From Siphonodentalium dalli (Eukaryota; Mollusca; Scaphopoda; Gadilida; Siphonodentaliidae): a DNA stretch of 64,000 nt. Shown here in pieces: positions 9,793 to 39,115 of the stretch. The notes below the pieces were generated by a model, which made no database searches, was not told the origin of the DNA, and saw only the letters and a list, made by a program, of their open reading frames with translations. Within the stretch, counting starts at the first letter, position 1. The number at the start of each line of letters is the position of its first letter. The stretch covers positions 26,538,987 through 26,602,986 of the forward strand of contig CP136063.1 of NCBI GenBank assembly GCA_032622095.1, given 5' to 3'. The position numbers were made by a program, and so were the translations under genes.

Positions 9793-9796
9793 TTAA

Positions 9797-11516: not shown

Positions 11517-11524
11517 CCCCTACC

Positions 11525-11990
11525 AAAATTTAGCTACACTAATGTTTCTAGTTAAACTAGATATTAGCTAATAATTGTACTAAAAATACACTAACCTGTT
11601 AGCTATAATTTAGCTATACTAAATAATAGCTAAGAATTACACTGAAACCTAGCTAAAACTTTAGTTAATATCTAGTGTAGCTAGAACTTAGCTAATAATA
11701 TATGCTAGAACTTAGCTAACATATTAGTTAGTTTTTAGCTTGATTGAATGTTTGGCCCCAAGGATGTTCCAATATGCTAGAAGTTAGCTAATTCAACATA
11801 GAAAATATCATTCTGTGCTAGAATTTGGCTAATTTGACACAGACAAATTTTCGAAAACTGCACCTAGCTGAAAAGTAGCTAATCCAACTTAGAATTGAGA
11901 CACATATAGTGAACTTAACTAGAATCTAGCTAATTTAACACAAACAAATTACCATAAAATTCCACCTAGCTAAAAGTTAGCTAATCTAAC
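11525..11990. repeat. TAGCTA-rich left arm
   Basis: About sixteen TAGCTA (or one-off TTGGCTAA) words occur in 470 bp, often as TTAGCTAAT or CTAGCTAAAA, 10-40 bases apart. TAGCTA is its own reverse complement, so the arm can pair with itself and with the right arm. Arrays of short motifs beside transposon tips are typical transposase-binding regions, as in CACTA/Spm elements; that role is inferred here. Confidence 0.75.
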
Positions 11991-12119
11991 TTATTCACCA
12001 ATAGCCAGTCTGCATCTGCAAATACGGTCATAAAACCGACACTGTACTGACAGTGAAGTGAGAATTCAGTTTACATCATTGTGTGGATGGTTGGAGTGAT
12101 GGCTGGGGAGGGGGTAGAG

Positions 12120-12345: not shown

Positions 12346-12658
12346 TAAGAAATGGGGAATAAGATCCAAATGTCATGTTTGTTTTAAAATGTTTGGGAAC
12401 GCTGCCCACACTTTTACAACATGTATGTACCGGTAGGTACACTTATGGAACTTTGGAAAGATTTGTCTACACTTATAAAATGCCACACTTATCGGACATT
12501 GGTAGTTTGGATATGTTCAGGTTTTCTGCTCACAGCTTCACACTCATATACAAGTGCACCGCTGGGCAGAGGTAACGCCCCCGACTGTACAATCAGAGAA
12601 ACTTTCTGGTTAAGCGCTATAAAAATGCCACATGTTGTTCTATATTAGCTTAAAATTT

Positions 12659-13297
12659 GGTCTGGTGCCACAAAAATAGAAGGAAAACTGAATTTTCTAA
12701 AAAAAAATATGAATTGTTTAAGTCGAAAAAGGGTCATAACTCTCACAAAAATTATCCGATTGAACAGATTGAACCGCAATTTTACCTTGACCTGTATTGC
12801 GATATTGGTAATACACAAAAAAAACGGGTTTTGCAAATAAACAATCCAAAATCAAGTTATCATCTGGAAACCAAAAAAAGTAGCAGAAAACCTGAATTTT
12901 CTAAGTCCAAAAAGGGGCGTAACTCTGGAAAAAATGGGCGGACGAAACCACGGCTATGGGGAAATCTTGTCCCCCCGGCTGGTACGTCTATTGGCATACC
13001 AAAGATCAACTGAATTGAATTAGCGAAACCAAAGTTATGAGTTGAAACGTTCATATGCCACAGAAAACTGAATTTTCTAAGTCCAAAAAGGGGCGTAACT
13101 CTGGAAAAAATGGGCGGACGAAACCACAGTTATGGGGAAATCTTGTCCCCCCGGCTGGTCTATTAGCATACCAAAGATCAACTGAATTGAGTTAGCGAAA
13201 CCAAAGTTATGAGTTGAAACGTTCGTACGGACGGAAGGACGGACGGACGGAGGGCTCCACTATATACCCCCAAATCTCCATCGGAGATCGGGGGCAT
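12659..13297 (-). repeat. Tandem array with GGACGGACGG end, copy 1
   Basis: Blocks GAATTTTCTAAGTC, CAAAAAGGGGCGTAACTC, GGGCGGACGAAACCA, GGCATACCAAAGATCAAC and ACCAAAGTTATGAGTTG repeat two to three times (from about 12690, 12892 and 13070). The array ends at 13230-13262 in GGACGGAAGGACGGACGG, then TATACCCCC and the small hairpin ATCTCCATCGGAGAT. On the other strand this is the same word order as the 62.7-kb array. Confidence 0.7.
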
Positions 13298-13299
13298 AA

Positions 13300-14778
13300 T
13301 AAGCTTTGTTCTATGCGGCTTAATAATAAATATGAACTTTTTCAATTATGAAATTATTTCGTTTTCGGTTATTTTTATTCTAATAGTAATAAACTTAATT
13401 AAAATTTTGTGCTAAAATAAAAAAGATTTGCATTTGCATATTGTGTTTTTGGGCATTTTAGTAATCCATATACAATTTATTAACTGCAATAATTTTTGTC
13501 ATAGAAACAATGAAAATTGGTCCGTTATCGTGTATTTTGAAATCTGCGTATCAAAGCGTCAATGATTGTGTTTCCAACCAGACCTGCAGATTTTCCCGGG
13601 GTGATTATATTTCAATGTTTATATATTGCGATATCGACTCACAAAAGTCACAGAAAAACATGCAATTTCGAGTGGGATCTTCACCTATAGTGAAGTATAT
13701 TATTAAGGAACATGCAGCTATATATAACTATATAAGAAATATATTCCCCGTATTACCTTTTCGACTTTATTATAAGGTTACCTGTCAAAACTTCAAAAAG
13801 TTCCCAGATTTTATACTGTTGCAATATGATCTCAACGGGCATTAGCCAGAGTAGAGATTCATGGCATGAGCTATGTCGATTTCCGAAATGATCCGGGGGC
13901 CCGTCGAGAAAAAGACGAGCAAAAAAACAAACACTGAACACAATCAAACAAAGGGGGGAATCTTCCATGAGAAACTATTTTCTTTCTTTTCATGTTCACT
14001 GTCATTGAATCGTATACAATGAGGGTGCCAAAGGAATTTAAGGAATGGTCATTTTAGTAAACGAACATACCATTTGAACGACTTTGATATGTCGCCGATC
14101 AACTCGCGCAGCAGTCAATTGATGTCTCAAATAAATTGTTCTCAATATATATATACGCCTATATATAGATACATGCATATATAGGTACCGGTGAATGACC
14201 TCAGTTTTAAGCGGATTAACCGTTTGATATAATTTATCCATTCCTTGTCAAGTTTGAGGTATCTATCACACCTCAACAAGAAAAGGGGACATTCAAACAA
14301 TATAAAGTTTCATTTTTGTCGAACACTCCGAAAAGGACCGGGATATACGAAAGAGTGAATTTATTATCGTCGTATAGATGAACGCTCTCCGTTGCACGAC
14401 ATGTAGCATGATGGTTAATTATAATCCCCAACACGCGGAAATAATTTTAGATAGCCGCGGATAGGGCTATGTTTAATTATTCTATATTCTCTGAGCATTT
14501 GGTGTGAAAAAAATTCCCAATAAAACTATTTTTATATCTGGTGTTTTCTGACCGCAAAACTTCAACATTAATGCAGTTAACACAATTAAATTGTGACTGT
14601 TTCCGTCTATATTTTGTCGCATAAAATCAATATACAATTACTATATATGAGTAGGCCTAGTTAGAATTTGTTTTTAACATTCTCGGAGAGTTATATGACA
14701 TGTACCTGATATTTGTTTAAAATTTCACACAAAAACTATCAAAAATAATAAAGTTTAACTTTATATAGGCCTGTACTA
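13300..14778. other. Unassigned unit sequence
   Basis: Present in both duplication copies. It contains the motif GCCAGAGTAGAGATTCATGG near 13847. A 111-codon plus-strand frame at 13510-13845 is retained in both copies, but two nearly identical young copies would keep it without selection. No domain is recognised. Confidence 0.4.
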
Positions 14779-15665
14779 GGGGAAACCCGGACAAAGCGGA
14801 TCGCCCGGGCAAAGCCGATCACCTTTATTATTTCAATATACTATCAAATTATTCCTTATCTATCCGTATTTTAGAATAAGGTCGTTTCGTGTTGGGTTAG
14901 TTTTTATACTTTTCCACAGAGAACAAGGTATATTAAAAGTTTGTAGCCCAGTAGAACATTTTCGTCGACATTTTTTCGATTTTACCAAATTTATAATTAT
15001 TGTGCGTTTGCGCATATCTATTGCGCAGGTCGACGATCACATACCCATCTACCCGAATAAATGTTGTCGATGTCTTAGGCAATACATGTGTAAAATAAGA
15101 CAATATGTCAATTTGCTAAATTCGATAGGACACCCGCGTAATGCCCCGGACTGTAAAAAGATGTGCTGTGGGCAAAGCGGATCGGGCAAAGCGGATCATT
15201 CACAACATGACTAACTTCCGGTACACATGCGTAGATTAAGTGAATTTGGACAATTTTAATAAGATGGGTCGACAAAACTCGTGCCTTGTCGGAGCATGAC
15301 CATAATTGAAAAATTGGAACGTTTGGAAAAATGCAATTTTAATTATTTGCAATAAATATGTATGATTGTCATAAATAAAACTGAAAAATATATGATTAGT
15401 TGAGTAGTATTGCATTTTCAGAAGGATTCGTTTGCTGATCCGCTTTGCCCGATGTGGTGATCCGATTTGCCCGACGGCCGGGCAAAGCGGATCAAAATTA
15501 AAAATCACCATATAGCAACCAAACCAATAGATGTATCTGAATGCATCCTACGCCAAATGTTATGCCATCATGATTAGAAACTGACTGTGCTAATATGTCT
15601 GATTGCCGGTTGCATTTTGTACAAGAAAACCTTAATTACGTGATCCGCTTTGCCCGGGTCTCCCC
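14779..15665. mobile_element. 887-bp MITE with GATCCGCTTTGCCC repeats
   Basis: The left end is GGGGAAACCCGGACAAAGC and the right end, complemented, GGGGAGACCCGGGCAAAGC. TA stands outside each (14777-14778 and 15666-15667), as in mariner-like elements. The word GATCCGCTTTGCCC or its complement, allowing one change, occurs about nine times. These are near both tips, doubled at 15167-15198, and clustered at 15434-15491. Such repeated sites look like transposase-binding sites. There is no open frame of substance, so it is non-autonomous. Confidence 0.75.
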
Positions 15666-16874
15666 TACGCATGTTGTCGACCGCTGTAAATCTCTTATAG
15701 TAGGCCTAAATGCATATATGTGGCTTTCCTCCCACGTGTTAATGTTTGTGGAATTTATATATCCCATATATAGCCTATGCATAATGCATCATTCTCGCTA
15801 TCATAAAAATGGTCCTCTGATCGGGGCGGGGGGGGGGGGATTTTCAGGCATGTGCACGTATACGGGTGATTCTCCCTTAAATGAACAAATTGGGCTAATC
15901 AAATATGAAAAAATGAAATAAGGAAAATGCCGATGAATTTTATGTTGGTGGGCAGCACAGATATTGGCCTCCACGAAAATAACATTTGGCAAAATTCTAG
16001 GGCAAGGTCAAGGTCATTCAAGGTCGTTCAATATAGCATGTGCAAATGACGTTTTTGGTTAAAATGACGTTTTGGTTGAAACAGGGCGACGTCATTGCAA
16101 AATTCGCTCTTTTTCCAAACTTGTATAGACCCACTATATCTATAACTATTCGATCATATTTCAAATAGAACCATTTTAGATGATGCCATAAACACACCGA
16201 CTACATTGGCAGAAATTAGATCTGGACCCAAATATAGAATTTGACGTCACAATAACGATCACGTGACATAAATTATACATTTTGGTATGACAAAAAGCGC
16301 TCTCTTCGTGGTTGGCCATGTTATCAGGTGTACATGGCTGTGCCCTGCGCTGATTTCAAGGACTCAATTTTCATACAACACGTCCACTTATCGCCACACG
16401 CCAATATCTGATAAATTATTAAGCTTTCCACTCATTCCGAAGCAGAATACTAGGGGACACCAATTTTGGTACATGTCACAGAACGCAAAACAGGTATGAC
16501 GTCCATTGAGAGTACCTGTTAATCGTTCTGTTTAGCATGCATGACTATGTATAGTAGATTTCCGTGGGTGTGTAGGTCTGTATACTACCATTACACACAT
16601 AATATGAGTGTAATCAATGTATTGAAATATAAACAACATATATACTTGTGATCCTTTGTGTTGTAGTTTAATGTAAGGCATACGTTTATATAACTATAGT
16701 ATAGACATTAATAAATATGAATTAACAGGGATATCTAACATATCAATAATTAACGATGTTTCTATTTCCGAACAGCATAATTATACAAGAACAGAATATG
16801 CTTGTGTAAGTACCGTATGCTACAATTAAACATGATAAACAACTTGTGCATTACATATATATGCCACATAATAC

Positions 16875-17123
16875 TTATAGACAAATGTCACACACATATT
16901 CTCTACATGACCCTTCTTCGTCGGTGCACAGTTCATGCGCCCAGTTCTTACACATTGCACATTGAATCCATTTTTCTCGAGGTCGTGAATCATCGAAATC
17001 CCCGCTGCATATGATGCAAAACCATTTGCGTCCCTGTGTCTTAGATTTCGACATAGTCTTCCTAGATGTGGGCTGTGTCTTCTTTGATCGCGACGTCGTC
17101 TTCCTCGAATCCCGCTGCTTGTT
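16875..17123 (-). CDS. Transposase exon 3: C-terminal PHD finger
   Basis: The exon begins after an excellent acceptor (TTGTTACAG) and encodes 82 residues to the stop. The first 35 residues are Lys/Ser/Thr/Arg rich. Then comes a C4-H-C3 PHD finger: CIIC, then CAMC, HELC and CDIC in the right order, with the tryptophan WIQC before the third cysteine. PHD fingers usually read histone H3 tails, so this end of the transposase may guide the element to particular chromatin. The upstream phase (0) matches exon 2. Intron 2 (17124-18027) is 904 bp. The finger looks whole, with every zinc ligand present. Confidence 0.8.
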   Translation of the reverse strand, partial: NKQRDSRKTTSRSKKTQPTSRKTMSKSKTQGRKWFCIICSGDFDDSRPREKWIQCAMCKNWAHELCTDEEGSCREYVCDICL

Positions 17124-17239
17124 CTGTAACAAATTAAGTTCGCATTAGTTTAATTTTTGGTCCGATGCATGCATATGATATATTAATGAGTACATTTTAT
17201 ATGAAGTTTCAACGTTAATATCTAGTTACATTTAAAGAT

Positions 17240-17640
17240 GAATATCCGAATTAACGCTCCTAAATGACTATTTATCTGACATCGGGGGTAAAACATAATT
17301 AATTCGATTCGAGGAACCCATCCGTCAAAGCTCAGAGTGATAAACTACGATTTTTGTTGTTTCTCGAGATGTGCAATTATATCTGCCCAGAAACACGTCG
17401 TCAATAGGACGATCTCGGACAAAATTGCGGATGAAGATGGATAACTCTAAAATCAAGTAGTATTACGTTTTGGGAAATTTAAAATTGCCAGTGCATGGTT
17501 AGCTTAATTTTGTTGCAATTAATCGATTCTGATAACTAAAGCGTATTTTGAAGAAATGTTGCTTTTGTTGTTGTGTTGTTGTATCTTGGTGATATGGAGA
17601 CCGTTTGATCGGATTGAGTCCCTTTAATATCCGTGTCTGT
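17240..17640 (+). repeat. Intronic repeat, first of an inverted pair
   Basis: Lies in intron 2. CCGAATTAACGCTCCTAAAT, TCTCGAGATGTGCAATTATA and AGAAACACGTCGTCAA recur in inverted orientation at 18520-18955 in intron 1. The pair brackets exon 2. Similarity is imperfect, with an extra 75 bp in the other arm, so the copies are older than the large duplication. Confidence 0.75.
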
Positions 17641-18027
17641 CTCTTTGTTGTTCTGTGTTCTGCTTCAGGGGCATTGATCTTTCGACTATCTGTGTCCTAT
17701 ATAAGAAATATAATTATGTTTATCGGTAACATACAAACAATATTGGTTACTGTGAAAAATGGTGGATCTAATATATTCAGTTGCAGTTGAGCAATATTGA
17801 CTATCGTAATCATTTAAAAGGTGCTCATGACCTTTAATTATTGATCGAACTATATTATTTGCATTCTTCTTGAATGATCCATTAAGGCAATTTGTAAACT
17901 AATTATGGAGAATATTAATAAAATAAATGTCTCCGAATAGATTGGTCTTTAATTAAGGAAACATTGTACATGTAAATATACCATCAAGGACTGAAAAAAA
18001 TAACAATCATGATTATATATACTGCAC

Positions 18028-18159
18028 CTTTTCCGTAGTTATGCTCCAAATTTTCGGTGAATGGCAGTCGCAGTGTAGTTGCTCGTTACAATAACAACTC
18101 AGATATCGGCATATGATCACACCATCACTGTGCTGATTTGCCACATCTTCAGGCCAAAC
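18028..18159 (-). CDS. Transposase exon 2: Cys-rich segment
   Basis: 132 bp coding for 44 residues in phase 0 at both borders. The acceptor is TTATCTTGCAG at 18160 and upstream, and the donor is AAG followed by GTGCAG (18022-18027). The exon contains CRYLSCYCNEQLHCDCH, five cysteines and two histidines spaced like a zinc-binding knuckle. A Cys-rich tail after the catalytic core is what I recall for this transposase type. The exact fit of splice sites and reading phase on both sides is the main support. Intron 1 is 19086 down to 18160. Confidence 0.7.
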
Positions 18160-18519
18160 CTGCAAGATAATGTCAGAAACAAAACACGACAGTGAAAGAC
18201 AGAAATCCATATGAGAAACGTTCATGTACATGTCTGTTGGAAGTATAACGGTCAAGAAATTTAAGGCTCCCTAAACTGGTTTTATCAAACTGAGTATGGC
18301 ATTTAAGAACGCTAGTATTTTATCATCCTTGGTAATGCACTCTGACAGAAACAAAGTAGATTGGTTATATAACAAATGCTCACAAACTGATATTAAACTG
18401 AATTTAGTTGGCTAGAAGTTTCACTTTAAATATATGAATGGCAAAGTAAATTTGAATTATATTCAGCTTACAAATCGGTCAAACGTCTTAAGCTCATTGA
18501 ACGTAATTTGAAGGTACTC

Positions 18520-18955
18520 AACCAGATCAGACGGTCCCCATAACACCAAGATACACAACAACAACAAAAAATTTCTTTAAAAATGATCAGAATCGATTAA
18601 TTGCAACAAAATATTGCTAATCAAATTTCCCAAAACGTGTTATTTATCAACATTTTTTTCTACTAAATATGGCCGTATTATCACTTGGCGTATCACAAAA
18701 TTTGGCTGTATTACTACCTGGTTTTAGAGTTATCCATCTTAATCCGCAATTTTCTCCGAGATCGTCCATTTGACGACGTGTTTCTGGGCCACATATAATT
18801 GCACATCTCGAGAAATAACAAAAAGTGATATTTGATCACTCTGAGCTTTGATGGTTGTGGTGGGTTCCTCGACTCGAATCAATTATTTTTTACCCCCGAT
18901 GCCAAAGAAATAGTAATTTAGGAGCGTTAATTCGGATAATGCATCTTTAACATTC
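18520..18955 (-). repeat. Intronic repeat, second of an inverted pair
   Basis: Reverse-complement partner of 17240-17640, placed in intron 1. It has an extra segment at about 18640-18715 reading TATTATCACTTGGCG, absent from the other arm. It may be a pair of MITE copies or one fold-back split by exon 2. Confidence 0.7.
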
Positions 18956-19086
18956 CCACACATGAATTGTTAGCGTGTTAAGTGGTGTCATGCAATACAT
19001 ATTTCAGAATTCAAGATTAGTTAGTGAAAACGAAGGAATCGTTTATGTACTATCTGTACCATTCAATGATTCATCTGAATACTCAC

Positions 19087-20999
19087 TTGATGAACGAGCA
19101 TTGTTCCGGGATATGCTCGCAAGTTTTCTGGCACCATCTGTGCAGTTTGGCGTATGTCGTCATCTGTCACCTTTCGGAATGTTACATTCAGCTGGGATCT
19201 TTTGAGTAGTTCATAGAATACATCCGAATCTGGGATATCCATCCCGCTGCATACTAGTCTGTCTGCCTCTTTTTTCACAGCAGCACCAACACCATCAGCC
19301 GCACCCTTACCGTGACCGCTCTCGAGAAAATTCCAAATAAGTTTTAATCCCAATTGCCGTGGAACTGTTGTTATTAGAAAAAACGACGTCTTGTTTCTAT
19401 ATTGGGACGTGGGACCATCACTTATTACGTGGATCTTTTTGACAAATGGCCTTGTGTCTTTGATTATTTTAAAAATCGGTTTCAAGTGAGCCCAAACTGC
19501 TGGTGCTTCATGGTTGTTTGACGATGACACCGTGCAAAATGATTCAGGCCGTCTGTTTGAATAAATCATAACCGTGTGAAGAGTCGCTTGTCTGTGAGAG
19601 GCTCCAAAATGCACCTCTGTTGTTTCTCTGGCAAATCGCAGTGAATAATTGCCTCATCATCTGGAAGCGACAACTTCAGAGCCCTCAAAGCTGCAAATTG
19701 GTGGTAAACACGATATATGTGCTTTGTATACCGCTGCATGGACTCATTGGTGATCTCTATCAGTTCTTTCAGTGTGGTGTGTTTGGATGATTTTACAGTC
19801 CTCTTGGTATTTCGACATTCGCCTTCCTTCGTGGTGTAACTACACATCTCATTCGTCCACTCTTGCCACTCGACCAATCTGGTGAGATCGGAACTCGGAG
19901 GACATTTCACTCTCTTCTTTGTCCTGCATCGAACACACAGGCCATACATACAATCCATGTTTGATGTGTCGCAGACTAACTTTCTGATGTATTCTTCGGG
20001 ATCTTGAGTTCCTGCTATCACATTTTCCCTGTTCAGTCTTTCAACCTTTAAACGCATGTTTTCGCAGTATTTGCAAAGACATAATTCACGATCTTTCAGG
20101 GATGGTTTAACGACGTGTGGTGGTCTATTTTTACAGAAGAAACTCATAGATATAGACTGTCTTGTTTCTGCTAGATATTTCGTATGGAGCATCTTCAGGG
20201 AGTGGAGCAGAAATCTCTTCTGCTTTCCATCTTTTTTAAGATCTTTCTTCGATGGTGACACTCTGCTGTTATCGTCTCGTGTGATGAACTCCCGAATGGA
20301 CGCGCGCATAATCTTACTTTTTTCAATCAAGCGACCTTTTTTGAGAGATGGGTTGCTGGTTGGGCGCCTTCCCAATCCAGTTTGCTTTCTCAGAAGACTC
20401 ATGCATCTGTATTTCTTGAGGATCGACAACCTGATGGTTTGTGCAAACTTCCTTTGTCCCTCCGTATTCTTTCTTATTGATTGTACGTCCTCCATGAATG
20501 CATTATGTAGTATTAAGGATCGTTTAACTTGTTTGTCGGGCTTCCCGGTCCGAATTTTCTTCATCAAAAGATTTGCTTTCCCTCTGGGTGAATAAGATTT
20601 TTCCTCAAGCCGAATAGCTGTTCTATCATTCTTCTTTCTAAGTCGTCTAATGATCTTATTCTTTTCTTCGATTGTATTTTCAAGTTTCGTTATTACTCGG
20701 TATTGTTTGTTTTTTGATGGGCATCGTGTTCGTGGTCGTCCTCTCTTCTTTCCGCTGCTGGTGGGTGTTGTCTCTGTTTCTTTTTTCTTTTTCCTTGCTT
20801 CCCTTTTCTGTTCTCTCCATTTCAATCTTTGGTTTTTCCTCTGTGAATCCGTCATTCCCTCCACGCTATATGTCTTTCCTATATGTTTTCTCTTTGTCCA
20901 CCTCTGCTTTTCCCTGGCCAAATATTCTTTGTGGCTCGACTCATTCTCTTTGATGCGATTCATATACGCTTTCCTCCTATTTGGAGCTGCCATTTTCAT
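19087..20999 (-). pseudogene. Transposase exon 1: catalytic core, one shift
   Basis: Starts at the ATG reading MKMAAPNRRK. Residues 1-100 are very basic, and a Lys/Arg/Glu coiled coil follows. Around residues 310-380 is a Cys cluster (LCLCKYCEN and CVRCRTKKRVKC) that could bind zinc. The catalytic part begins with IIHCD (D455). A shift of one base, probably with a small loss, near 19615-19625 then moves the frame to VHFGASHRQATLHT, HVISDGPTSQY (second acid) and GHGKGAADGVG (third block). The exon ends at a perfect donor, CAA followed by GTGAGT (19081-19086). Upstream, TTTCATTTTTAG near 21023 looks like an acceptor, so a 5' untranslated exon is possible. The transposase would cut and rejoin DNA at the element tips. 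The shift makes this copy inactive unless it is a sequencing error. Confidence 0.8.
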
Positions 21000-21029
21000 T
21001 TTATCACCAGCTCTTGCAGATATCTAAAA

Positions 21030-22350
21030 ATGAAACAATGAATGACTAAAATTACTAGATGATAAAAATCGTCAGAAATTTGAAAATTACCTTAGACAAT
21101 TTATGTGATTTTGGTGTTCTACATGTAACTTTGGACAATTACACTGTGGAAATCGAGATAGGAAAATCTAATTACATATATATATATATCAGAAGGATAA
21201 ATTGCCACAGCCATGACATCATATGTGCCGTAGTCAGATTGAAATGGCAAAATAAAGTGGACTAAGAATATATAATATGGAATGGGACAGGTCTAATTGA
21301 GTTTAATGTCAGAATAAATAGTGAATTCAATCAATTGCAATTCAATAATGGAACTACTCAGTATAAACTACAACGTGTCCATGGGACTATTGAAGACTAT
21401 TTTGCTAGCCAAATAATAGCAGGAACTTTAATTTATCAGAAACTGGATACGACTCCGCAAGTAAGGGTTAACCAAAACATCATCGAGCACCTGCTATTTA
21501 CGTCGCGTATTGAAATCTACAAGTTATGATTTGTATGAAGATTTGGAAATGATAATATGCAGCATTCAACCAGTATTATTGTGCGCTTTTTTCTCAAATC
21601 GGTCTCACGTTTAGATAAAATCCTGTACTCTTCTGACTCTATTCCAGTTTATAGTATGTAATAGAGTGGTAATTGGATGAATAAATCAGGTTATGTAAAA
21701 CTGGCTATCGCAGTATAGGTACCCTAACTTTTATTTTAATTTGTAATATTTCTGGTTGGATCAGGTTGGATTCACCATCCTGTTAAACACTACTGTTTAA
21801 GATTTTACATTGAATATGCTTGGCAACCTGAGTCCATGCGATCTTAATAAAAAAAAAGTCAATGACAAAAATATTACATCGCTTCAGTATATAATACCAA
21901 CTAATTTAAGTTATTATCAAGGTTTTTGGAAGCCGTGTGGTCTATAAGCACATGACTCGTGCAGGAAGGATAACCCTGAATTCACACTTCTACTATTTGA
22001 GGGAAGCTATACATTCGGACACCACGGCATCGTAAGAAAGCTTTGGAGTGGGGTATGTAAGAACGGTATACGTTTTTTTTTAGACTGACGATCTGCTGCG
22101 TATCATGAATCAATAGGCAATCAGACTTCACAATTTATTTTTAAAAACATTTTCAAGACTAATAGTTTCTTTTAAATATTTTATGACATAAACATTTGAA
22201 TTCGAAATACTTATCTGTAAATCACAGTTGCCTACAAATTGAGTCACATTTGATCGAGTGACGGACGGGTGTATTAGCGGTTGAAACATCCACCTTTCTC
22301 ATATCAATCATATATGTCATATATATATATTCATTATGAGCAGTTGAAAT
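21030..22350. other. Transposon interior without genes
   Basis: AT-rich sequence upstream of the transposase gene, probably its promoter and 5' region. No clear TATA or initiator can be picked out with confidence. Confidence 0.35.
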
Positions 22351-22355
22351 AACGT

Positions 22356-22434
22356 CGGTCTCCGTGGTCCAGTGGTCAAAGTGAATGACGTTATAATTTT
22401 GGGTACCGACACTGGGGGTTCGATTCAGCGGTTA
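22356..22434 (+). other. tRNA-like sequence with A and B boxes
   Basis: TGGTCCAGTGG matches the A box and, about 55 bases on, GGTTCGATTCA matches ten of eleven B-box positions. The acceptor and T stems do not pair well, so this is a tRNA relic or a Pol III promoter rather than a working tRNA. Confidence 0.35.
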
Positions 22435-22839
22435 TTAATTATTGTATTTTTCTCAATAAACTACTTATTTTCACAGTTTTAATAAGGGAAAATGAATTAT
22501 ATATGTTTTTAGATTCTAATAATGCTATTTTTCAAGCAAAACACAGGAGTTAGACTTATTTAACTATATATTAGTAAATGTCAAAACTATGAGAATCAAA
22601 GCAGACGATGTAAAGAAAAATAACTCTAAAACTTATGACCTGCTATTTTTTCATCAAGTTTAATACGAATAAAATAATTTATATAGATATGTACTCACCT
22701 TATGCCACTTTTATCAAAATTCTTGCAGATTTAAAAATGCTTATGCGCTATTTCTAACATACGATTAGTTAATTCGTCTGGACTAGCTGACCGTTTTTGA
22801 CGCTAGGCGGCGCATCAATTCTTGAGTTTCGTTGAGTGC

Positions 22840-22890
22840 TGAATGAGTTCACTGTCGACCATGGGAACGATGGTGGTTCGAATCCAGCTT
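22840..22890 (+). other. tRNA-like B box
   Basis: GGTTCGAATCC is a perfect B box and its flanks give four of five T-stem pairs (GGTGG with CCAGC). No convincing A box lies upstream and no acceptor stem forms. Confidence 0.25.
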
Positions 22891-27350: not shown

Positions 27351-29326
27351 TTATACCTCCCACAACGAAGTTGGGGGGGGGGGTATACTGGAGTCAGCTT
27401 GTCTGTCGGTCTGTCCGTAGACACAAATTTGTCTGGAGTTTTTCTCAGTCGTTTTTTTATCAATTTCCGTGAAACTTGGCACAGACATCAACCACCATGG
27501 TGGAGTTATCCTCCCTTTTTCAACTTAGAAAATTTTCGCAAAATGTAAAAAGAATTCGGAGCTTTTTTATTCATACATTTTTCGGTCAATTTTGAAAAAA
27601 ACTTGACTCAGATATTTAGTACCACGGGAACCAGTACACCTGCGATTATGACGTCTGTCCGACATTTTTTGGTGGAGTTATCTCCCTTTTTCAACTTAGA
27701 ATTTTTTTTTTTTGTCCGAGCTTTTATTCCTACATTTTTAGGTCAATGTTTTTTTAATCTTGGCAGTAATATTTAGTACCATGGGAACCTGTGCATCTGC
27801 GATTATGATGTCTGTCCGACTTTTTCTTGTGGAGTTATTCCCCTTTTTTGACTTAGAAATTTTTGCAACATGCATAATTTTGTCCAAGCTTTTATTCCCA
27901 CATTTTTCGGTCAATAGGTTTAAGATTAGGGTTAGGGTTGTGCACCTGCAATGAGAATGCAAAACACAGGTATGATTTGATTCGATATTCGTTTCGTGTC
28001 GATTTAGACACTTACTCTCGGGCTCCAAATAAAAGTGCAGGCCCAAATAATAGTGCAGGGAGGAAATTACATTTAAAGTTAATAAAAGTGCAGACCCAAA
28101 TAATAGAACAGGGGGAACTCTGAGCAAAACATCAACATAACTGTGGTAAACAATTATTTTTATATAGTATGTGGCATGTGGTGTTTTGTTCAATATTTAA
28201 ATGTTCACATATATGCCATATACTTGAATATGTACATGCATAAAGTTATAAGCTCATCATTTTGATATCAGAATCATGTAGAAATCTTGAGTTTGTGACG
28301 ATTTCTTTTTTCATAGCCTCAAAATTAATAAACGTGCAGACCCAAATAAGCACCATGCAGGGGGGATATTTCCCAAGAAAATAATAAACGTGCATGCATG
28401 TTTATTTGGAGCCCAAGAGTAAGACCTCATTTACAAAGTTGGAATGTACACTCACACTTAGTGGCAAGATGCTGCCACTGTTGGACTTGTACACTTCGTT
28501 GTAAGTGTATACTCACACTTCGTTGTAAGTGTACACTTGGAGCATAAATCTCCCTACACTTATGACACACTTGGGAAATGTGCCTTAAAGTTCCTACTAT
28601 TTAATAATAATTATAACCCCCCCCCTCCCCCCTGCCGCCGCAATGAAGTTAGGGGGTGTATACTGGAGTTCGTCCGTGGACATAAACCACCATGTGAACC
28701 TATGCACCTGCGATTATGACCTTTATGACTTTTTTTGGTGGAGTTTTTCCCCCCTTTTTCGACTTAGAAATTTTTCGCAAGATGTATAATTTTGTCCGAG
28801 CTTTTATTCCTACATTTTTAGGTAAATTTTTGTTTAACTTGGCACAGATATATAGTACCATGATAACCTGCGATTGTGATGTCTGTCCGTCAGTGTCCGA
28901 CATTTATTGGTGGAGTTATCCCCCTTTTTTTACTTAGAATTTTTTTTTGCAACATTCCTAAATTTGTCCGAACTTTTATTCCTACATTTTTAGGTCAATG
29001 TTTTTTAATCTTGGCACTCACATTTAGTACCATGGGAACCTGTGCACCTGCGATTATGATGTCTGTTCGACTTTTTTTGTGGAGTTATTCCCCTTTTTCG
29101 ACTTAGAACATTTTTGCAACATGCATAATTAAGGTCTGAGCTTTTATTCCTACATTTTTCGGTCAATAGCTTTAAGATTAGGGTTATGTACTGCAATGTG
29201 AACTGTTATATTATTATTTTAACTAAATATTTACTGATTTACTGACATGTGAAACATCTTAGTATTTAAAAAACGGGGCGGGGGTATCCTTAGTCCCATT
29301 GGGACAGTCAAGTCACACCTCTAGTT
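27351..29326 (+). repeat. Tandem-array element with hairpin end, copy 1
   Basis: Begins TTATACCTCCCACAACG with a G run and a TCTGTCGGTCTGTCCG stretch. It continues with about six units of roughly 160-190 bp. Each holds GTGGAGTTATCCCCC, TTTCGACTTAGAA, TTTTATTCCTACATTTTT and CACCTGCGATTATGATG. It ends with GGGGTATCC, the hairpin GTCCCATTGGGAC (29293-29305) and CACCTCTAGTT. Unit core plus a fixed end with a hairpin resembles non-autonomous Helentron (pearl-like) elements of molluscs. It is interrupted by the element at about 28013-28413. Confidence 0.6.
28013..28413. mobile_element. MITE with TTACTCTCGGGCTCC ends
   Basis: The left tip TTACTCTCGGGCTCCAAAT and the complemented right tip TTACTCTTGGGCTCCAAAT match at 18 of 19 positions. 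Interior words AAAGTGCAG and ACCCAAATAA repeat in both halves. It splits the array at 27351-29326. The short flanking repeat is ambiguous (GAC on both sides). Confidence 0.6.
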
Positions 29327-29654
29327 CCAACTGAAAATACATATGTATGCTGATATTTCTCACTGATATGTGCAGCAAATTTACAGCCTTAAGGATGCAC
29401 AGAATGGTCAAATCTGCAGCTATTGGCTTTAATCAATAAATTTGAAAAATGATCAAAGAAATATGGGTTGATACAAAAATCAGATTTGGCACTGAAATGA
29501 TTAAAGCACTAAATTGTCATTGTTTCAAAATAAATAATTATGTTTGTAACTTATTTGTTGTTATTACTAAATGTCTTGCAACTGCCATTTTACTATGTAC
29601 TTCTTTTAATTAGGTCCCTTACTTAATTGTACAGGTTGCTTCATTGCCAGATTC

Positions 29655-30097
29655 AAGCTAATATTAGGCTAAATATTAGCTAGATATTAACTAGAATATA
29701 GCTAGATGTTAGCTAATATTATACTAGATACCAGCTAAAAGATAGCTAGATTTTAACTAGAATATAGCTAGATTCTGGCTAATACTGTACTAAATACTAT
29801 AGCTAGAAAATATAGCTAGATAATGGCTGATATATTTAGCTAACATTTAGTTATATTCTAGTTAAAATTTAGCCATTTCAGCTGGTTTCTGCAGCCGGCA
29901 TCCAGACCATACTAAATCTTAGCTAAAAATTAGCTATAGCTAAAAATTAGCTAATTTATGTAACTAAAAAGTAGCTAATTGTTAGCTAGATTATGGCTAA
30001 ATAGCTCATTTGCATAACTAACTAAAAAGTAGCTAAATCTTAGCTAGATTCTAGCTAAATAACTAATTAGCATAGTTGAAACGGCTAAAAGATAGCT
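29655..30097. repeat. TAGCTA-rich arm, truncated inner copy
   Basis: Same sequence as 38473-38930 apart from small indels. It ends abruptly at the duplication junction with GATAGCT and lacks the terminal 183 bp that lead to TGGTAGGGG at 39113. It marks where copy 1 was joined to copy 2. Confidence 0.8.
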
Positions 30098-33000
30098 GGT
30101 CTGGTGCCACAAAAATAGAAGGAAAACTGAATTTTCTAAAAAAAAATATGAATTGTTTAAGTCGAAAAAGGGTCATAACTCTCACAAAAATTATCCGATT
30201 GAACAGATTGAACCGCAATTTTACCTTGACCTGTATTGCGATATTGGTAATACACAAAAAAAACGGGTTTTGCAAATAAACAATCCAAAATCAAGTTATC
30301 ATCTGGAAACCAAAAAAAGTAGCAGAAAACCTGAATTTTCTAAGTCCAAAAAGGGGCGTAACTCTGGAAAAAATGGGCGGACGAAACCACGGCTATGGGG
30401 AAATCTTGTCCCCCCGGCTGGTACGTCTATTGGCATACCAAAGATCAACTGAATTGAATTAGCGAAACCAAAGTTATGAGTTGAAACGTTCATATGCCAC
30501 AGAAAACTGAATTTTCTAAGTCCAAAAAGGGGCGTAACTCTGGAAAAAATGGGCGGACGAAACTGCAGTTATGGGGAAATCTTGTCCCCCCGGCTGGTCT
30601 ATTAGCATACCAAAGATCAACTGAATTGAGTTAGCGAAACCAAAGTTATGAGTTGAAACGTTCGTACGGACGGAAGGACGGACGGACGGAGGGCTCCACT
30701 ATATACCCCCAAATCTCCATCGGAGATCGGGGGCATAATAAGCTTTGTTCTATGCGGCTTAATAATAAATATGAACTTTTTCAATTATGAAATTATTTCG
30801 TTTTCGGTTATTTTTATTCTAATAGTAATAAACTTAATTAAAATTTTGTGCTAAAATAAAAAAGATTTGCATTTGCATATTGTGTTTTTGGGCATTTTAG
30901 TAATCCATATACAATTTATTAACTGCAATAATTTTTGTCATAGAAACAATGAAAATTGGTCCGTTATCGTGTATTTTGAAATCTGCGTATCAAAGCGTCA
31001 ATGATTGTGTTTCCAACCAGACTTGCAGATTTCCCCGGGGTGATTATATTTCAATGTTTATATATTGCGATATCGACTCACAAAAGTCACAGAAAAACAT
31101 GCAATTTCGAGTGGGATCTTCACCTATAGTGAAGTATATTATTAAGGAACATGCAGCTATATATAACTATATAAGAAATATATTCCCCATATTACCTTTT
31201 CGACTTTATTATAAGGTTCCCTGTCAAAACTTCAAAAAGTTCCCAGATTTTATACTGTTGCAATATGATCTCAACGGGCATTAGCCAGAGTAGAGATTCA
31301 TGGCATGAGCTATGTCGATTTCCGAAATGATCCGGGGGCCCGTCGAGAAAAAGACGAGCAAAAAAACAAACACTGAACACAATCAAACAAAGGGGGGAAT
31401 CTTCCATGAGAAACTATTTTCTTTCTTTTCATGTTCACTGTCATTGAATCGTATACAATGAGGGTGCCAAAGGAATTTAAGGAATGGTCATTTTAGTAAA
31501 CGAACATACCATTTGAACGACTTTGATATGTCGCCGATCAACTCGCGCAGCAGTCAATTGATGTCTCAAATAAATTGTTCTCAATATATATATACGCCTA
31601 TATATAGATACATGCATATATAGGTACCGGTGAATGACCTCAGTTTTAAGCGGATTAACCGTTTGATATAATTTATCCATTCCTTGTCAAGTTTGAGGTA
31701 TCTATCACACCTCAACAAGAAAAGGGGACATTCAAACAATATAAAGTTTCATTTTTGTCGAACACTCCGAAAAGGACCGGGATATACGAAAGAGTGAATT
31801 TATTATCGTCGTATAGATGAACGCTCTCCGTTGCACGACATGTAGCATGATGGTTAATTATAATCCCCAACACGCGGAAATAATTTTAGATAGCCGCGGA
31901 TAGGGCTATGTTTAATTATTCTATATTCTCTGAGCATTTGGTGTGAAAAAAATTCCCAATAAAACTATTTTTATATCTGGTGTTTTCTGACCGCAAAACT
32001 TCAACATTAATGCAGTTAACACAATTAAATTGTGACTGTTTCCGTCTATATTTTGTCGCATAAAATCAATATACAATTACTATATATGAGTAGGCCTAGT
32101 TAGAATTTGTTTTTAACATTCTCGGAGAGTTATATGACATGTACCTGATATTTGTTTAAAATTTCACACAAAAACTATCAAAAATAATAAAGTTTAACTT
32201 TATATAGGCCTGTACTAGGGGAAACCCGGACAAAGCGGATCGCCCGGGCAAAGCCGATCACCTTTATTATTTCAATATACTATCAAATTATTCCTTATCT
32301 ATCCGTATTTTAGAATAAGGTCGTTTCGTGTTGGGTTAGTTTTTATACTTTTCCACAGAGAACAAGGTATATTAAAAGTTTGTAGCCCAGTAGAACATTT
32401 TCGTCGACATTTTTTCGATTTTACCAAATTTATAATTATTGTGCGTTTGCGCATATCTATTGCGCAGGTCGACGATCACATACCCATCTACCCGAATAAA
32501 TGTTGTCGATGTCTTAGGCAATACATGTGTAAAATAAGACAATATGTCAATTTGCTAAATTCGATAGGACACCCGCGTAATGCCCCGGACTGTAAAAAGA
32601 TGTGCTGTGGGCAAAGCGGATCGGGCAAAGCGGATCATTCACAACATGACTAACTTCCGGTACACATGCGTAGATTAAGTGAATTTGGACAATTTTAATA
32701 AGATGGGTCGACAAAACTCGTGCCTTGTCGGAGCATGACCATAATTGAAAAATTGGAACGTTTGGAAAAATGCAATTTTAATTATTTGCAATAAATATGT
32801 ATGATTGTCATAAATAAAACTGAAAAATATATGATTAGTTGAGTAGTATTGCATTTTCAGAAGGATTCGTTTGCTGATCCGCTTTGCCCGATGTGGTGAT
32901 CCGATTTGCCCGACGGCCGGGCAAAGCGGATCAAAATTAAAAATCACCATATAGCAACCAAACCAATAGATGTATCTGAATGCATCCTACGCCAAATGTT

Positions 33001-36000
33001 ATGCCATCATGATTAGAAACTGACTGTGCTAATATGTCTGATTGCCGGTTGCATTTTGTACAAGAAAACCTTAATTACGTGATCCGCTTTGCCCGGGTCT
33101 CCCCTACGCGTGTTGTCGACCGCTGTAAATCTCTTATAGTAGGCCTAAATGCATATATGTGGCTTTCCTCCCACGTGTTAATGTTTGTGGAATTTATATA
33201 TCCCATATATAGCCTATGCATAATGCATCATTCTCGCTATCATAAAAATGGTCCTCTGATCGGGGCGGGGGGGGGGGATTTTCAGGCATGTGCACGTATA
33301 CATGCTGATTTTTCCTTTCGATCCTTATTCTTATTGGGACCCACGTACACCCACCCCGCGTCCAAATTGTTTTCCGTTTTCGGCAGTTTTTCCCGACCAT
33401 TTTTGGACACCCACCTCCTTTTAACACTAAAACAGAGATTTGTTGGCCCCATCGGTCACCCACCCACCCCGGCATACGTGCGGAAAAATCCCCCCTACAA
33501 TATTAATTAATGACATTTAATAATGTTGTCATTAAAAGCCTACTTCTGTAGAATTATGTAAAGTTCATGCAGTTCAAAAGTCCTGTCTATAAATCAATAT
33601 GTAAATGGTATATGGAGTTTAATTCGCATGGCATATACATGTAGGCCTATCCATGGTTAGGCCTATTGTTGATACGTTTAATTTATATCAAGTCAGCAGA
33701 TCTAGTCTAATATTGACGATAAGTGCTCTATGTGCTGTTATCGTAGTATTTACCCCCCCCCCCCCCCCCCCCACTCTGATGTCATAATATCTAAATCCGG
33801 TGAGAGTCTAGAACTAAGCATACGATTGGCTAAAAGCCAACACGTGAATGTGTGCGCATGCGCAGATTCTTTCCGGTAATATTATCGGCTGCATTTTATT
33901 TGAAAACAACAATCATTTTTACGAAAATAATGGCGAGGAAAGCCAAAAACAGTTCAACAATTGGCAAAAAGAACAAAGAAACTATACACGCTAGAGATAT
34001 ACCATGATAGGAGTCAGAATTCGGCGAATAATTACGCAAATAGACGAAGTTTACGAACTTTGCTGAGTTTGCTCCCGGTGACATTGAGTCATTGACTGAG
34101 AAATTCAATGTCATTCACTCAATCACAGTTTTTTATCACTGTCATTGTCGACAACTGTTACAGTCAACACTACTGAGTACAGTACAGCAGTCAAGTGGAA
34201 TCACACTGACACTGGAAGCATAATCGTCGCATATAAATTATAACTGATGGACACCGGTCGACTGATTCAGTTAAGAGTCAGACAGAGATTCATGGCATGA
34301 TCTAGTTGGTGGACCCAACTATGATTATGAACTAATCAAAAACAGAGCTAGACGCTTGGTGGACCCAACTAATCAAACAGAGCTAGATGCTATGCTCTGA
34401 TAATAAAAGTCAGGTTTACCGACTAGACATGATCAATCAATTTCAGTGATTGATCTCTCGCATGTTGCATTCATTGTTTGCATTTTGCAAAGCGAATTTC
34501 AATCATCCACTTGTTACTTGACTCTTGAGACAAGTTGAGTCGAGACTGGCAGAGTGCTTGTATTACGGGACAAAACTAATTCTGTTGGAGGGAGAGAGAC
34601 GATGCGATACATGCAGTGTGCATTGGAATTTGGATCTCAGTGACAATCAATGTGACATCACTCATCAGAACTGACAGAAGAAAAAAAACTGGAATCGGTC
34701 ATAGTACTCTTAGTCATACTCATAGTCATAGACTCATACTAGTAGTCATACAAAGTTCCCCATGTGTGCAGCAGCTTCATCAAAACACTTTCAGAGCATA
34801 TCCACAAAGTTGAACACTTTACATTACAACTTACTAAAAGTTACTTTAATATTACAAGAACTTACACAGTTAGTCAGTTACTGTGCATGTGACACTCACT
34901 GTGACACTGGCCTCAACAAAGCCGTGCACATGACATAGTGCTTGCTGAGTATATACTTTACATGTACACTGTACTAGTATTTAAAGACATGACCAAAATT
35001 TGGCAAAAAGGATAATTAATGTTCCTATAGAGACTTAATAGAGGTACCATACCGTCCATACGGTATATGAATATGTGTTTCTTTAGATGGGATGTGGCTG
35101 ACAGTGACAGACCATTTCACGGATAGCGAGAATGATGCATTCTGGTATCCAAACATGGACTTCAGCCAGAGTAGAGTTCATGGCATGATCTATAAATAAG
35201 GTTCCTTGGCTCAATCAATATATTTCATAAATCTGTGGCCATCTGCCGATTGACTATCTTCAAGCTATTCTCTTCCCTTTAGCCAAGTTTAGGCTTTTAG
35301 GTTGAATTTAACTCCTTTTATTAGATTATGATGTCCATATAGACCATTTCACGGATAAGTATCCAAACACACACATTTGATTATCTCCCGGATGCAATTA
35401 CTATTTTATATTTAGAGTGGGTCCATAAAACTAATTATAACTTGTTAAATTATATCCCCAGCAACAAGGGAGAGATGAAGGAACAAAGAATTGCGATATT
35501 AAGGACTATACCTATATTGTTGAAAAGAGTTCTCATAAAATTACAAAAAAATATAGGTAGTCTTAATTTCCTTAAACATATTTACAGTGGGTCTAAAGAC
35601 CTAAAGGGAAGAGAATAGCTTGAAGACAGATTGTCAGCTCATTTGATTTCAATTGGCCACAGATTTATGAAATATATTGATTGAGCCAAAGAACCAAATC
35701 TATAGATCATGCCATGAATCTCTTCTCTGGCCGATGCTCGAAGAGATCATATTCCACCAGTACAAAACCCGGGAACTTTTTACAGTTTTAACAGGGAACC
35801 TTATAAATATAAAAATAACGTGGGAAATGTATTTTCTTTGTTAATTTACCGGTACCTGTTGCTTAATTTATTCATTGGTACCTGATGTTCCCAGCTCGAA
35901 ATTACATTTAACCTTTAAGTAACTTTAAACGTTCCCAACTTCCCAGGTTTTGAACTGGTGGAATACGATCTCTACGGGTGTCAGCCAGAGTAGAGATTCA

Positions 36001-38930
36001 TGGCATGATCTAACTAATCTATAGATAATTTATATATTATTAGTGAAAGTATTTTATCAGTTTAAACCATTGATTCCCTTGATTATTGTATTGCCATCTT
36101 AGTACGAGTCATTGAATTTTGTACATGGATGCATGCCCATCTACGGTACTAGTACACTTATTATACCTCCCACAACGAAGTTGGGGGGGGGGGTATACTG
36201 GAGTCAGCTTGTCTGTCGGTCTGTCCGTAGACACAAATTTGTCTGGAGTTTTTCTCAGTCGTTTTTTTATCAATTTCCGTGAAACTTGGCACAGACATCA
36301 ACCACCATGGTGGAGTTATCCTCCCTTTTTCAACTTAGAAAATTTTCGCAAAATGTAAAAAGAATTCGGAGCTTTTTTATTCATACATTTTTCGGTCAAT
36401 TTTGAAAAAAACTTGACTCAGATATTTAGTACCACGGGAACCAGTACACCTGCGATTATGACGTCTGTCCGACATTTTTTGGTGGAGTTATCTCCCTTTT
36501 TCAACTTAGAATTTTTTTTTTTTGTCCGAGCTTTTATTCCTACATTTTTAGGTCAATGTTTTTTTAATCTTGGCAGTAATATTTAGTACCATGGGAACCT
36601 GTGCATCTGCGATTATGATGTCTGTCCGACTTTTTCTTGTGGAGTTATTCCCCTTTTTTGACTTAGAAATTTTTGCAACATGCATAATTTTGTCCAAGCT
36701 TTTATTCCCACATTTTTCGGTCAATAGGTTTAAGATTAGGGTTAGGGTTGTGCACCTGCAATGAGAATGCAAAACACAGGTATGATTTGATTCGATATTC
36801 GTTTCGTGTCGATTTAGACACTTACTCTCGGGCTCCAAATAAAAGTGCAGGCCCAAATAATAGTGCAGGGAGGAAATTACATTTAAAGTTAATAAAAGTG
36901 CAGACCCAAATAATAGAACAGGGGGAACTCTGAGCAAAACATCAACATAACTGTGGTAAACAATTATTTTTATATAGTATGTGGCATGTGGTGTTTTGTT
37001 CAATATTTAAATGTTCACATATATGCCATATACTTGAATATGTACATGCATAAAGTTATAAGCTCATCATTTTGATATCAGAATCATGTAGAAATCTTGA
37101 GTTTGTGACGATTTCTTTTTTCATAGCCTCAAAATTAATAAACGTGCAGACCCAAATAAGCACCATGCAGGGGGGATATTTCCCAAGAAAATAATAAACG
37201 TGCATGCATGTTTATTTGGAGCCCAAGAGTAAGACCTCATTTACAAAGTTGGAATGTACACTTACAATTCACACTTCACACTTAGTGGCAAGATGCTGCC
37301 ACTGTTGGACTTGTACACTTCGTTGTAAGTGTATACTCACACTTCGTTGTAAGTGTACACTTGGAGCATAAATCTCCCTACACTTATGACACACTTGGGA
37401 AATGTGCCTTAAAGTTCCTACTATTTAATAATAATTATAACCCCCCCCTCCCCCCTGCCGCCGCAATGAAGTTAGGGGGTGTATACTGGAGTTCGTCCGT
37501 GGACATAAACCACCATGTGAACCTATGCACCTGCGATTATGACCTTTATGACTTTTTTTGGTGGAGTTTTTCCCCCCTTTTTCGACTTAGAAATTTTTCG
37601 CAAGATGTATAATTTTGTCCGAGCTTTTATTCCTACATTTTTAGGTAAATTTTTGTTTAACTTGGCACAGATATATAGTACCATGATAACCTGCGATTGT
37701 GATGTCTGTCCGTCAGTGTCCGACATTTATTGGTGGAGTTATCCCCCTTTTTTTACTTAGAATTTTTTTTGCAACATTCCTAAATTTGTCCGAACTTTTA
37801 TTCCTACATTTTTAGGTCAATGTTTTTTAATCTTGGCACTCACATTTAGTACCATGGGAACCTGTGCACCTGCGATTATGATGTCTGTTCGACTTTTTTT
37901 GTGGAGTTATTCCCCTTTTTCGACTTAGAACATTTTTGCAACATGCATAATTAAGGTCTGAGCTTTTATTCCTACATTTTTCGGTCAATAGCTTTAAGAT
38001 TAGGGTTATGTACTGCAATGTGAACTGTTATTTTATTATTTTAACTAAATATTTACTGATTTACTGACATGTGAAACATCTTAGTATTTAAAAAACGGGG
38101 CGGGGGTATCCTTAGTCCCATTGGGACAGTCAAGTCACACCTCTAGTTCCAACTGAAAATACATATGTATGCTGATATTTCTCACTGATATGTGCAGCAA
38201 ATTTACAGCCTTAAGGATGCACAGAATGGTCAAATCTGCAGCTATTGGCTTTAATCAATAAATTTGAAAAATGATCAAAGAAATATGGGTTGATACAAAA
38301 ATCAGATTTGGCACTGAAATGATTAAAGCACTAAATTGTCATTGTTTCAAAATAAATAATTATGTTTGTAACTTATTTGTTGTTATTACTAAATGTCTTG
38401 CAACTGCCATTTTACTATGTACTTCTTTTAATTAGGTCCCTTACTTAATTGTACAGGTTGCTTCATTGCCAGATTCAAGCTAATATTAGGCTAAATATTA
38501 GCTAGATATTAACTAGAATATAGCTAGATGTTAGCTAATATTATACTAGATACCAGCTAAAGGATAGCTAGATTTTAACTAGAATATAGCTAGATTCTGG
38601 CTAATACTGTACTAAATACTATAGCTAGAAAATATAGCTAGATAATGGCTGATATATTTAGCTAACATTTAGTTATATTCTAGTTAAAATTTAGCCATTT
38701 CAGCTGGTTTCTGCAGCCGGCATCCAGACCATACTAAATCTTAGCTAAAAATTAGTTAAAAATTAGCTATAGCTAAAAATTAGCTAATTTATGTAACTAA
38801 AAAGTAGCTAATTGTTAGCTAGATTGTGGCTAAATAGCTCATTTGCATAACTAACTAAAAAGTAGCTAAATCTTAGCTAGATTCTAGCTAAATAACTAAT
38901 TAGCATAGTTGAAACGGCTAAAAGATAGCT
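30098..38930. repeat. Large tandem duplication, copy 2 (8.8 kb)
   Basis: Copy 2 repeats the unit without the 8632-bp transposon. Its parts are the array at 30098-30736, the MITE with GATCCGCTTTGCCC at 32218-33104, the empty site near 33294-33308, the inverted-repeat element at about 35163-35728, the array element at 36161-38140 and the TAGCTA arm from 38473. A few insertions of 1-20 bp distinguish it, for example near 33636, 37262 and 38752. Confidence 0.95.
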
Positions 38931-39113
38931 AACGCTCATGGGATTTCATCAAAGGAAATTCATCTTAGCTAATATCTAGCTAATGTCAGCTAATATCTAG
39001 TTAAGCTAAATAGTAACTAGGATATTGACTAGACCTTAACTAAAGGTTGGCTAATGTGACTGGCTAATAGTTGGCTAATAATTAACTAGAATATAACTGA
39101 TTTTTGGTAGGGG
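38473..39113. repeat. TAGCTA-rich right arm with terminal tip
   Basis: More than twenty TAGCTA-type words in 640 bp, ending in GATTTTTGGTAGGGG. This is the complete right end of the 27.6-kb insertion, and the mirror of 11517-11990. Confidence 0.75.
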
Positions 39114-39115
39114 TG

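Follow-up and report, generated by a model that had tools for sequence, protein, structure and literature searches.

What kind of transposon ends in the same short tip on both sides and duplicates two target bases, and which enzyme moves it? The question is raised by a 27597-bp insertion at 11517-39113 of a 64,000-nucleotide stretch of contig CP136063.1 of the scaphopod Siphonodentalium dalli (hereafter the window, to which plain coordinates refer). Inward-facing CCCCTACCAAAA tips stand at both ends of this insertion, with TG immediately outside each. A first-pass annotation of the sequence had taken it for an unclassified element of a possibly undescribed group. We consider it probable that the insertion goes back to a ~10.1-kb non-autonomous element of the CCC-tipped animal branch of CACTA/EnSpm transposons that makes a 2-bp target site duplication (TSD), the TRC elements, and that it belongs to a multi-copy family moved in trans by an enzyme of the Transposase_21 type.

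The insertion and its target site

The features that define the insertion are the following.

11517-39113, no strand: whole insertion, a ~10.1-kb CCCCTACC/TAGCTA element that has grown by tandem duplication of an internal segment and by the arrival of another transposon inside it, defined by tips, TSD, empty site and internal repeats
11515-11516, no strand: TG target duplication, left copy
39114-39115, no strand: TG target duplication, right copy
11517-11528, plus strand: left tip CCCCTACCAAAA, a 12-bp perfect inverted repeat with the right tip
39102-39113, minus strand: right tip CCCCTACCAAAA
11226-11343, no strand: uninterrupted copy of the left flank, identical to 11399-11516 at 117 of 118 bases
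39129-39536, minus strand: right-flank piece of the hAT-like frame split by the insertion (DUF4371, E 6.8e-6, below the Pfam cut-off)

The 8-mer CCCCTACC occurs twice in the window, once on each strand (11517-11524, plus; 39106-39113, minus). Taken alone this is weak evidence, as 12 of 100 shuffled sequences also held at least two occurrences, but the sequence common to both tips is longer and extends over the full 12 bp of CCCCTACCAAAA. When the flanks are joined via one TG, they give the uninterrupted copy with a single mismatch in the first 18 bases past the TG and diverge beyond. Across the joined site the minus strand gives ...FDGTNTMSGNKTGLQK*IHHLSPHAIYIKCKNHRLAL..., a single frame with one stop that runs through the hAT-like motif. 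We call the target hAT-like because it is recognised by Pfam matches only, all of them below the curated cut-offs; the second such match, to the hAT dimerisation domain (Dimer_Tnp_hAT), lies at 9287-9949 (E 3.6e-4). Thus the tips, the paired TG, the nearby uninterrupted copy and the joined reading frame agree, and a single 27.6-kb insertion with a 2-bp TG duplication, as first proposed, is confirmed together with the splitting of a hAT-like motif. Beside the insertion site, at 9816-10046 and 11180-11430, are inverted repeats based on GCCAATGCATTCTCTTATATAT, including 80-bp arms that are 99% complementary; these are perhaps another small mobile element.

The tips recur as paired ends throughout the genome

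The source genome of the window (2.23 Gb, 9 contigs) was searched for the tips. A pattern covering both of them matched 437 times, against 15 for the reversed control. Each 23-mer tip was found at 82 places with two mismatches or fewer (67 of the 82 left tips were exact), while the controls gave 0 matches for the left and 1 for the right 23-mer. Pairing left and right tips that face inward within 70 kb yielded 55 pairs. Of these, 13 measure 1.0-1.9 kb and 25 measure 9.9-14.3 kb; another 14 have different lengths, none above 43 kb, and the remaining three, longer than 50 kb, are probably false or nested pairings that are kept within the 55.

The flanks were read for 22 pairs, 21 of them distinct; the pair L062/L063 was omitted because its flanks are those of L058/L059 in inverted order (C3:9494755-9507980 against C3:4002939-4016259). 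Five tips that had been selected for an adjacent TG stand outside the TSD count, except that of the window. The duplication, whose length in other copies the first-pass annotation had named as a possible refutation, was exactly 2 bp in 18 of the 21 pairs and longer in none, three pairs being unmatched; the cross-pair background was 62/462 (P 1.8e-13). The duplicated dinucleotides vary: AT in five pairs, TT and TA in four each, TG and AC in two each, and AA in one. Equal pair lengths were also seen within one chromosome at C4:138181788 and C4:139052768 and at C9:116348569 and C9:116398362. On C3, C4 and C9, some pairs appear to go back to one insertion that was copied along with its chromosome segment, and the independent events are therefore fewer than the pairs; either segmental duplication or duplication in the assembly could account for them.

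Four of the short copies (L082-L085, 1.0-1.3 kb) keep an exon-like piece, a version of ATGGCAGACATTTTGAATCAACT...TTCAGGTAAGT, which has an ATG and a GTAAGT in L082 and L083, has GTTAGT in L084, and is without the ATG in L085. It resembles a first exon with its splice donor, perhaps the relic of an autonomous gene. A 243-base query from this region gave 40 scored places out of 232 candidates, 21 of which form a second score class. One member of that class, L102 (C8:64069540-64070500), read in part, ends in a different right tip, CCCTTACCAAAATGTCC, which is present at 254 places in the genome and at none in the control. There is thus a sister family with the tip CCCTTACCAAAATGTCCTAGGATAT and other subterminal repeats (AGCTTGGTAAAGCT, CCTAGGATATCC), which has the exon-like piece in common with the short copies of the window family.

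Tips, target duplications and subterminal repeats point to CACTA/TRC elements

Besides the tips, the ends of the insertion are marked by dense arrays of TAGCTA.

11517-12016, no strand: left subterminal array, 14 copies of TAGCTA within 500 bp (in mononucleotide shuffles 0.16 on average and 2 at most)
38478-39113, no strand: right subterminal array, 20 copies of TAGCTA (in shuffles 0.21 on average and 3 at most), also with tandem-repeat matches
29300-30097, no strand: internal right subterminal array of the first repeat unit, 17 TAGCTA, truncated by the duplication junction ~183 bp before a tip would follow

Tips that start with CCC, a 2-bp TSD of varied sequence and subterminal short direct and inverted repeats are the features of the CACTA/TRC elements, and it is mainly on these that the probable membership rests; the superfamily, the enzyme and the role of the subterminal repeats are inferred. 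In the available excerpts of the published accounts, SmTRC1 has CCC tips with 2-bp direct repeats in 7 of 14 copies, and one Tribolium and one Aedes element are alike (PMC1636069); Spongebob_HMa (EnSpm-4N1_HM) of Hydra has CCC tips and a 2-bp TSD and is assigned to TRC/CACTA by its authors (PMC4298943); and subterminal repeats are described for CACTA elements (PMC8978399). The first-pass annotation held that the tips match no superfamily that it could name; the tip and TSD features thought unclassifiable are therefore those of a published group. Most likely, the window family is new and non-autonomous and belongs with the animal CACTA/TRC elements.

The likeness is not complete. SmTRC1 and its relatives have deletion derivatives, as the window family does, and the Tribolium tip begins CCCTAG while the Aedes element measures 9.2 kb; on the other hand, SmTRC1 has a 54-bp inverted repeat and encodes a Transposase_21, whereas the window element has a 12-bp perfect repeat and no transposase of its own was found in it (PMC1636069). 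The Spongebob_HMa consensus is 5.8 kb with a broken transposase, its tip is CCCAGCCAAC... instead of CCCCTACCAAAA, and TAGCTA arrays are not mentioned for it in the excerpt of PMC4298943; its grouping with TRC/CACTA rests on tips and TSD plus similarity to known members, and it is reported from insects too (PMC4298943). The 12-mer CCCCTACCAAAA itself was not found in the literature searched, a coverage to which most subscription-journal papers and Repbase do not belong; a further search of that literature for described elements of this kind led to PMC4298943 alone. The plant CACTA elements (En/Spm) differ from the window element in their CACTA tips and 3-bp TSD.

Two-base duplications are also made by Tc1/mariner (TA) and Mirage elements, and we rejected Tc1/mariner because only 4 of the 18 duplications here are TA. 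They are known as well in ISL2EU (PHIS) (PMC4482050) and in Plavaka (PMC12730594), going by the excerpts available. It is very unlikely, in our estimate, that the window family belongs to ISL2EU, to Tc1/mariner, or to Mirage/Plavaka within CMC: six different dinucleotides are duplicated here, against the fixed AT of ISL2EU, and the PlavakaA/B tips TGT and CATCA differ from those of the window (PMC4482050, PMC12730594). ISL2EU was rejected by itself, as it requires AT, which was found in 5 of the 18 (PMC4482050).

The insertion is a composite

The insertion is of the length first reported, but it is not one simple element. The stretch 12658-15878 matches 30097-33317 at 99.6%, and 24496-30097 matches 33298-38930 at 99.1%, so that two repeat units can be delimited, the first of which is interrupted by a block that the second does not contain.

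12658-30097, plus strand: duplicated internal segment, first copy, interrupted by the nested element (repeat matches 99.6% and 99.1%)
30098-38930, plus strand: duplicated segment, second copy, which keeps the nested element's uninterrupted target ATAC at 33298-33301
15864-24495, minus strand: nested 8.6-kb transposon with tips GGG[C/T]GATTCTCC... and a broken transposase-like gene (borders in other copies, tips, TSD)
15860-15863, no strand: ATAC, left copy of the nested element's 4-bp TSD (right copy 24496-24499)
19566-21023, minus strand: nested gene, N-terminal part, a 485-aa open frame; broken in the window copy, open over 661 aa in the C3 copy (L008)
19063-19653, minus strand: nested gene, core (SDGPTSQYRNK ... 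HGKGAADGVG), a 196-aa open frame
16875-17144, minus strand: nested PHD-finger-like exon (PF00628, E 0.0013, below the curated cut-off), C-terminal in the relatives L011, L014 and L015

The first unit ends ~183 bp before a right tip, and the first 1141 bp of the element are missing from the second unit. If 8636 bp for the block plus one ATAC, and 8833 bp for a single repeat unit, are subtracted from 27597, the arithmetic gives an original size of ~10.1 kb, near the lower limit of the main size class among the genomic tip pairs. The repeats could have arisen either by internal tandem duplication or by fusion of a dimer, and we infer that the 8.8 kb were duplicated in place. The alternative, two neighbouring elements fused into a dimer and moved as one composite transposon, is a variant of our interpretation that does not exclude it, and we regard it as possible though the less likely of the two. 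The absent inner tips, the intact outer tips and the single TSD are compatible with both histories, and pairs of 30 kb and 43 kb do exist elsewhere in the genome; yet duplication in place takes one event and requires no second element, and the two copies of the segment are 99.1-99.6% alike. Most simply, the nested transposon arrived after the doubling, because otherwise it would itself be doubled.

The block is a transposon in its own right, with tips that read GGG[C/T]GATTCTCC[A/C]TTAAA in fuller form. A copy on C3 has the same two borders as in the window within unrelated flanks, and a copy on C1 shares the border at 24495 but lacks ~25 bases at its other end; over stretches the three copies are 99.0-99.8% alike. 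The TSD is 4 bp in two of the three copies read (ATAC in the window, CAGA on C3), the right end of the C1 copy being damaged. The first-pass statement that no transposase is present does not hold for the insertion as a whole, since the broken transposase-like gene at 19063-21023 lies in this nested transposon with its 4-bp TSD. A protein search gave 150 scored matches to the gene in the genome. Its core is present in three further copies with 97% protein identity (L074/L008/L075, L076/L007/L077 and L009), and many relatives are more distant, among them some whose open frames span 600-1456 aa. In 14 aligned proteins of this type, D544 and D585 are invariant and D463 nearly so (numbering of the first sequence), which makes these residues candidates for a DDD triad. 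Pfam named no family for the protein core, giving PHD-like ends and chance matches, and a PDB profile search was empty. From motifs that we take to resemble those of Sola, the element is probably Sola-like, and its TSD and size suit Sola2. Set side by side on such features, both have a 4-bp TSD, and the 888-aa transposase of one Sola2 element compares with frames of 853-877 aa in relatives of the nested gene, while Sola2 TSDs are AT-rich and CAGA and ATAC are less so (PMC3627910, in the excerpt available).

As the own enzyme of the whole 27.6-kb element, the gene at 19063-21023 is ruled out by the separate borders of the C3 and C1 copies. Even if the idea is widened, so that either the nested transposase moves the whole element or a relative of it serves the same tip group, it appears highly improbable to us. 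The gene is located between the window tips, and one relative (L070, at C1:170608075) lies 2.4 kb inside a tip of the sister family; but L070 is without sister sequence, the C3 and C1 copies of the block have other border tips, no CCCCTACC tips and only 1-2 TAGCTA per 9-10-kb stretch, the TSD in the window and on C3 is 4 bp, the insertion site is uninterrupted in the second unit, and of 62 places tested only the window's own falls inside one of the 55 pairs. The sister-family tip concerned is at C1:170605680 and the relative, with a 627-aa frame, within C1:170607000-170610500; this gene may be either a nested guest or a link between the groups.

Which enzyme moves the family?

CACTA transposases with PF02992 (Transposase_21) and DUF4218 exist in the source genome: PF02992 was found at 78 places, and in none of 14 control genomes. 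Transposases of the animal TRC branch are expected to have C(2)C and H(3-4)H motifs between the second D and the last E; two PF02992 proteins of the genome, from outside the window family, show CHWC. On C7, 12 Transposase_21 places lie in ~5 Mb (18.8-24.0 Mb), each with one in-frame TAG and near-equal scores.

Positional tests used all 78 PF02992 places, 100 of the 254 sister right tips, 62 of the 150 nested-gene matches, and 40 of 40 and 100 of 183 candidates for a sister left tip, at distances that were picked after seeing the data. On C2 and C8, two PF02992 genes with the same score stand on the inner side of listed sister tips (CCCTTACCAAAATG), at distances of 22.0 and 23.8 kb and with the same strand relative to the tip, so that 2 of the 78 places are within 30 kb of such a tip where 0.126 are expected (P 0.0085, weak). 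On C6, a PF02992 gene with a frame of 926 aa is found inward of a CCCYTACCAAAATGV tip, at a distance of 3.2-3.6 kb (P 0.010 for a limit of 5 kb and 0.052 for one of 30 kb, again weak). A further search with CACTA proteins (51 rows compared by eye) found none near the listed tips except at one C8 place. When CACTA frames of two loci were compared by local tblastn with the window element and the remaining retrieved loci, a single chance match resulted (E 0.31), and Rfam found nothing in 9000-42000 of the window.

Several observations weigh against the assignment to CACTA/TRC and to an enzyme of this type. None of the 78 PF02992 places is inside any of the 55 tip pairs, the nearest being 10 kb outside a pair, and Pfam recognised no transposase in the 11 tested frames of the outer element itself, only chance matches below the cut-offs. 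The PF02992 neighbours adjoin sister or related tips and not window tips; relative to their tips, the C6 gene is on one strand and the C2 and C8 genes are on the other, and the latter two, which may be duplicates of a single unit, are oriented against the exon-like segment that the short copies keep; and for the C2, C8 and C6 places a second tip was not found. The Sola-like relative on C1, one of the 62 tested, is also close to a listed sister tip (P 0.015 within 5 kb and 0.074 within 30 kb), and such nearness is therefore not specific to CACTA genes. The left tip of the sister family was not found with either of two patterns: the first gave 183 matches against 142 in the control, mostly by chance, and the second 40 against 3, one of which faces a window-type right tip 1.9 kb away and none a listed sister tip. 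Finally, three of the 21 distinct pairs have no matching TSD (CT/TG, TG/TA and AA/TT), and, according to the excerpt of PMC12730594, the CMCT clade with its TSDs of 2-5 bp has CA..TG termini in most cases, unlike the window tips.

These observations bear on the idea of the first-pass annotation that the element represents an undescribed group. In that case the whole CCC(C/T)TACCAAAA group, comprising the window family, the 254-tip sister family and relatives, would be an undescribed cut-and-paste superfamily with its own transposase, and its likeness to TRC in CCC tips, subterminal arrays and 2-bp stagger would be convergent. We think this unlikely, though it keeps some weight because no own transposase was found inside a copy with window tips. 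The 55 pairs without a Transposase_21 gene, the 11 frames without a recognised transposase, the absence of the 12-mer from the searched literature and an exon-like piece that could be assigned to no protein would all fit it; against it, CCC tips, a variable 2-bp TSD and subterminal arrays jointly match a published CACTA branch, the weak positional hints are toward PF02992 genes, and a missing transposase is usual for non-autonomous copies. We therefore keep the non-autonomous part of that idea, which is probably correct, and prefer the CACTA/TRC branch to a new group.

A possible course of events

On the CACTA/TRC assignment, a cut-and-paste DNA transposon of ~10.1 kb would have entered a decayed hAT-like sequence, with duplication of the target dinucleotide TG. 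A Transposase_21-type enzyme, acting in trans, may bind the tips and the subterminal motifs, excise the element and join it to the target over a stagger of 2 bp. A tandem duplication of the internal segment 12658-30097, probably in place, came later. The first copy was then entered by the second transposon, of 8.6 kb with a 4-bp TSD and probably Sola-like, whereas the second copy still has the uninterrupted site.

Other contents of the window

Away from the insertion, frames at 51807-55732 (plus strand) and 57991-60195 (minus strand) match a GIY-YIG domain at E 1.5e-7 and a LINE-type reverse transcriptase at E 3.5e-38 and are presumably Penelope-like. A Pogo/Tc5-like transposase frame lies at 3030-3716 on the minus strand (PF03221, E 3.4e-4, below the cut-off).

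Significance

The animal CACTA/TRC elements are thinly described, and a well-sampled family, with a 2-bp TSD in 18 of 21 pairs, is added to them here. The window also makes visible how such an element grew from 10 kb to 27.6 kb via internal duplication and a nested insertion; the empty site of the nested insertion is kept next door, and the order of events is therefore given. If it should prove true that the enzyme of the family is not CACTA-like, the elements would represent a new lineage.

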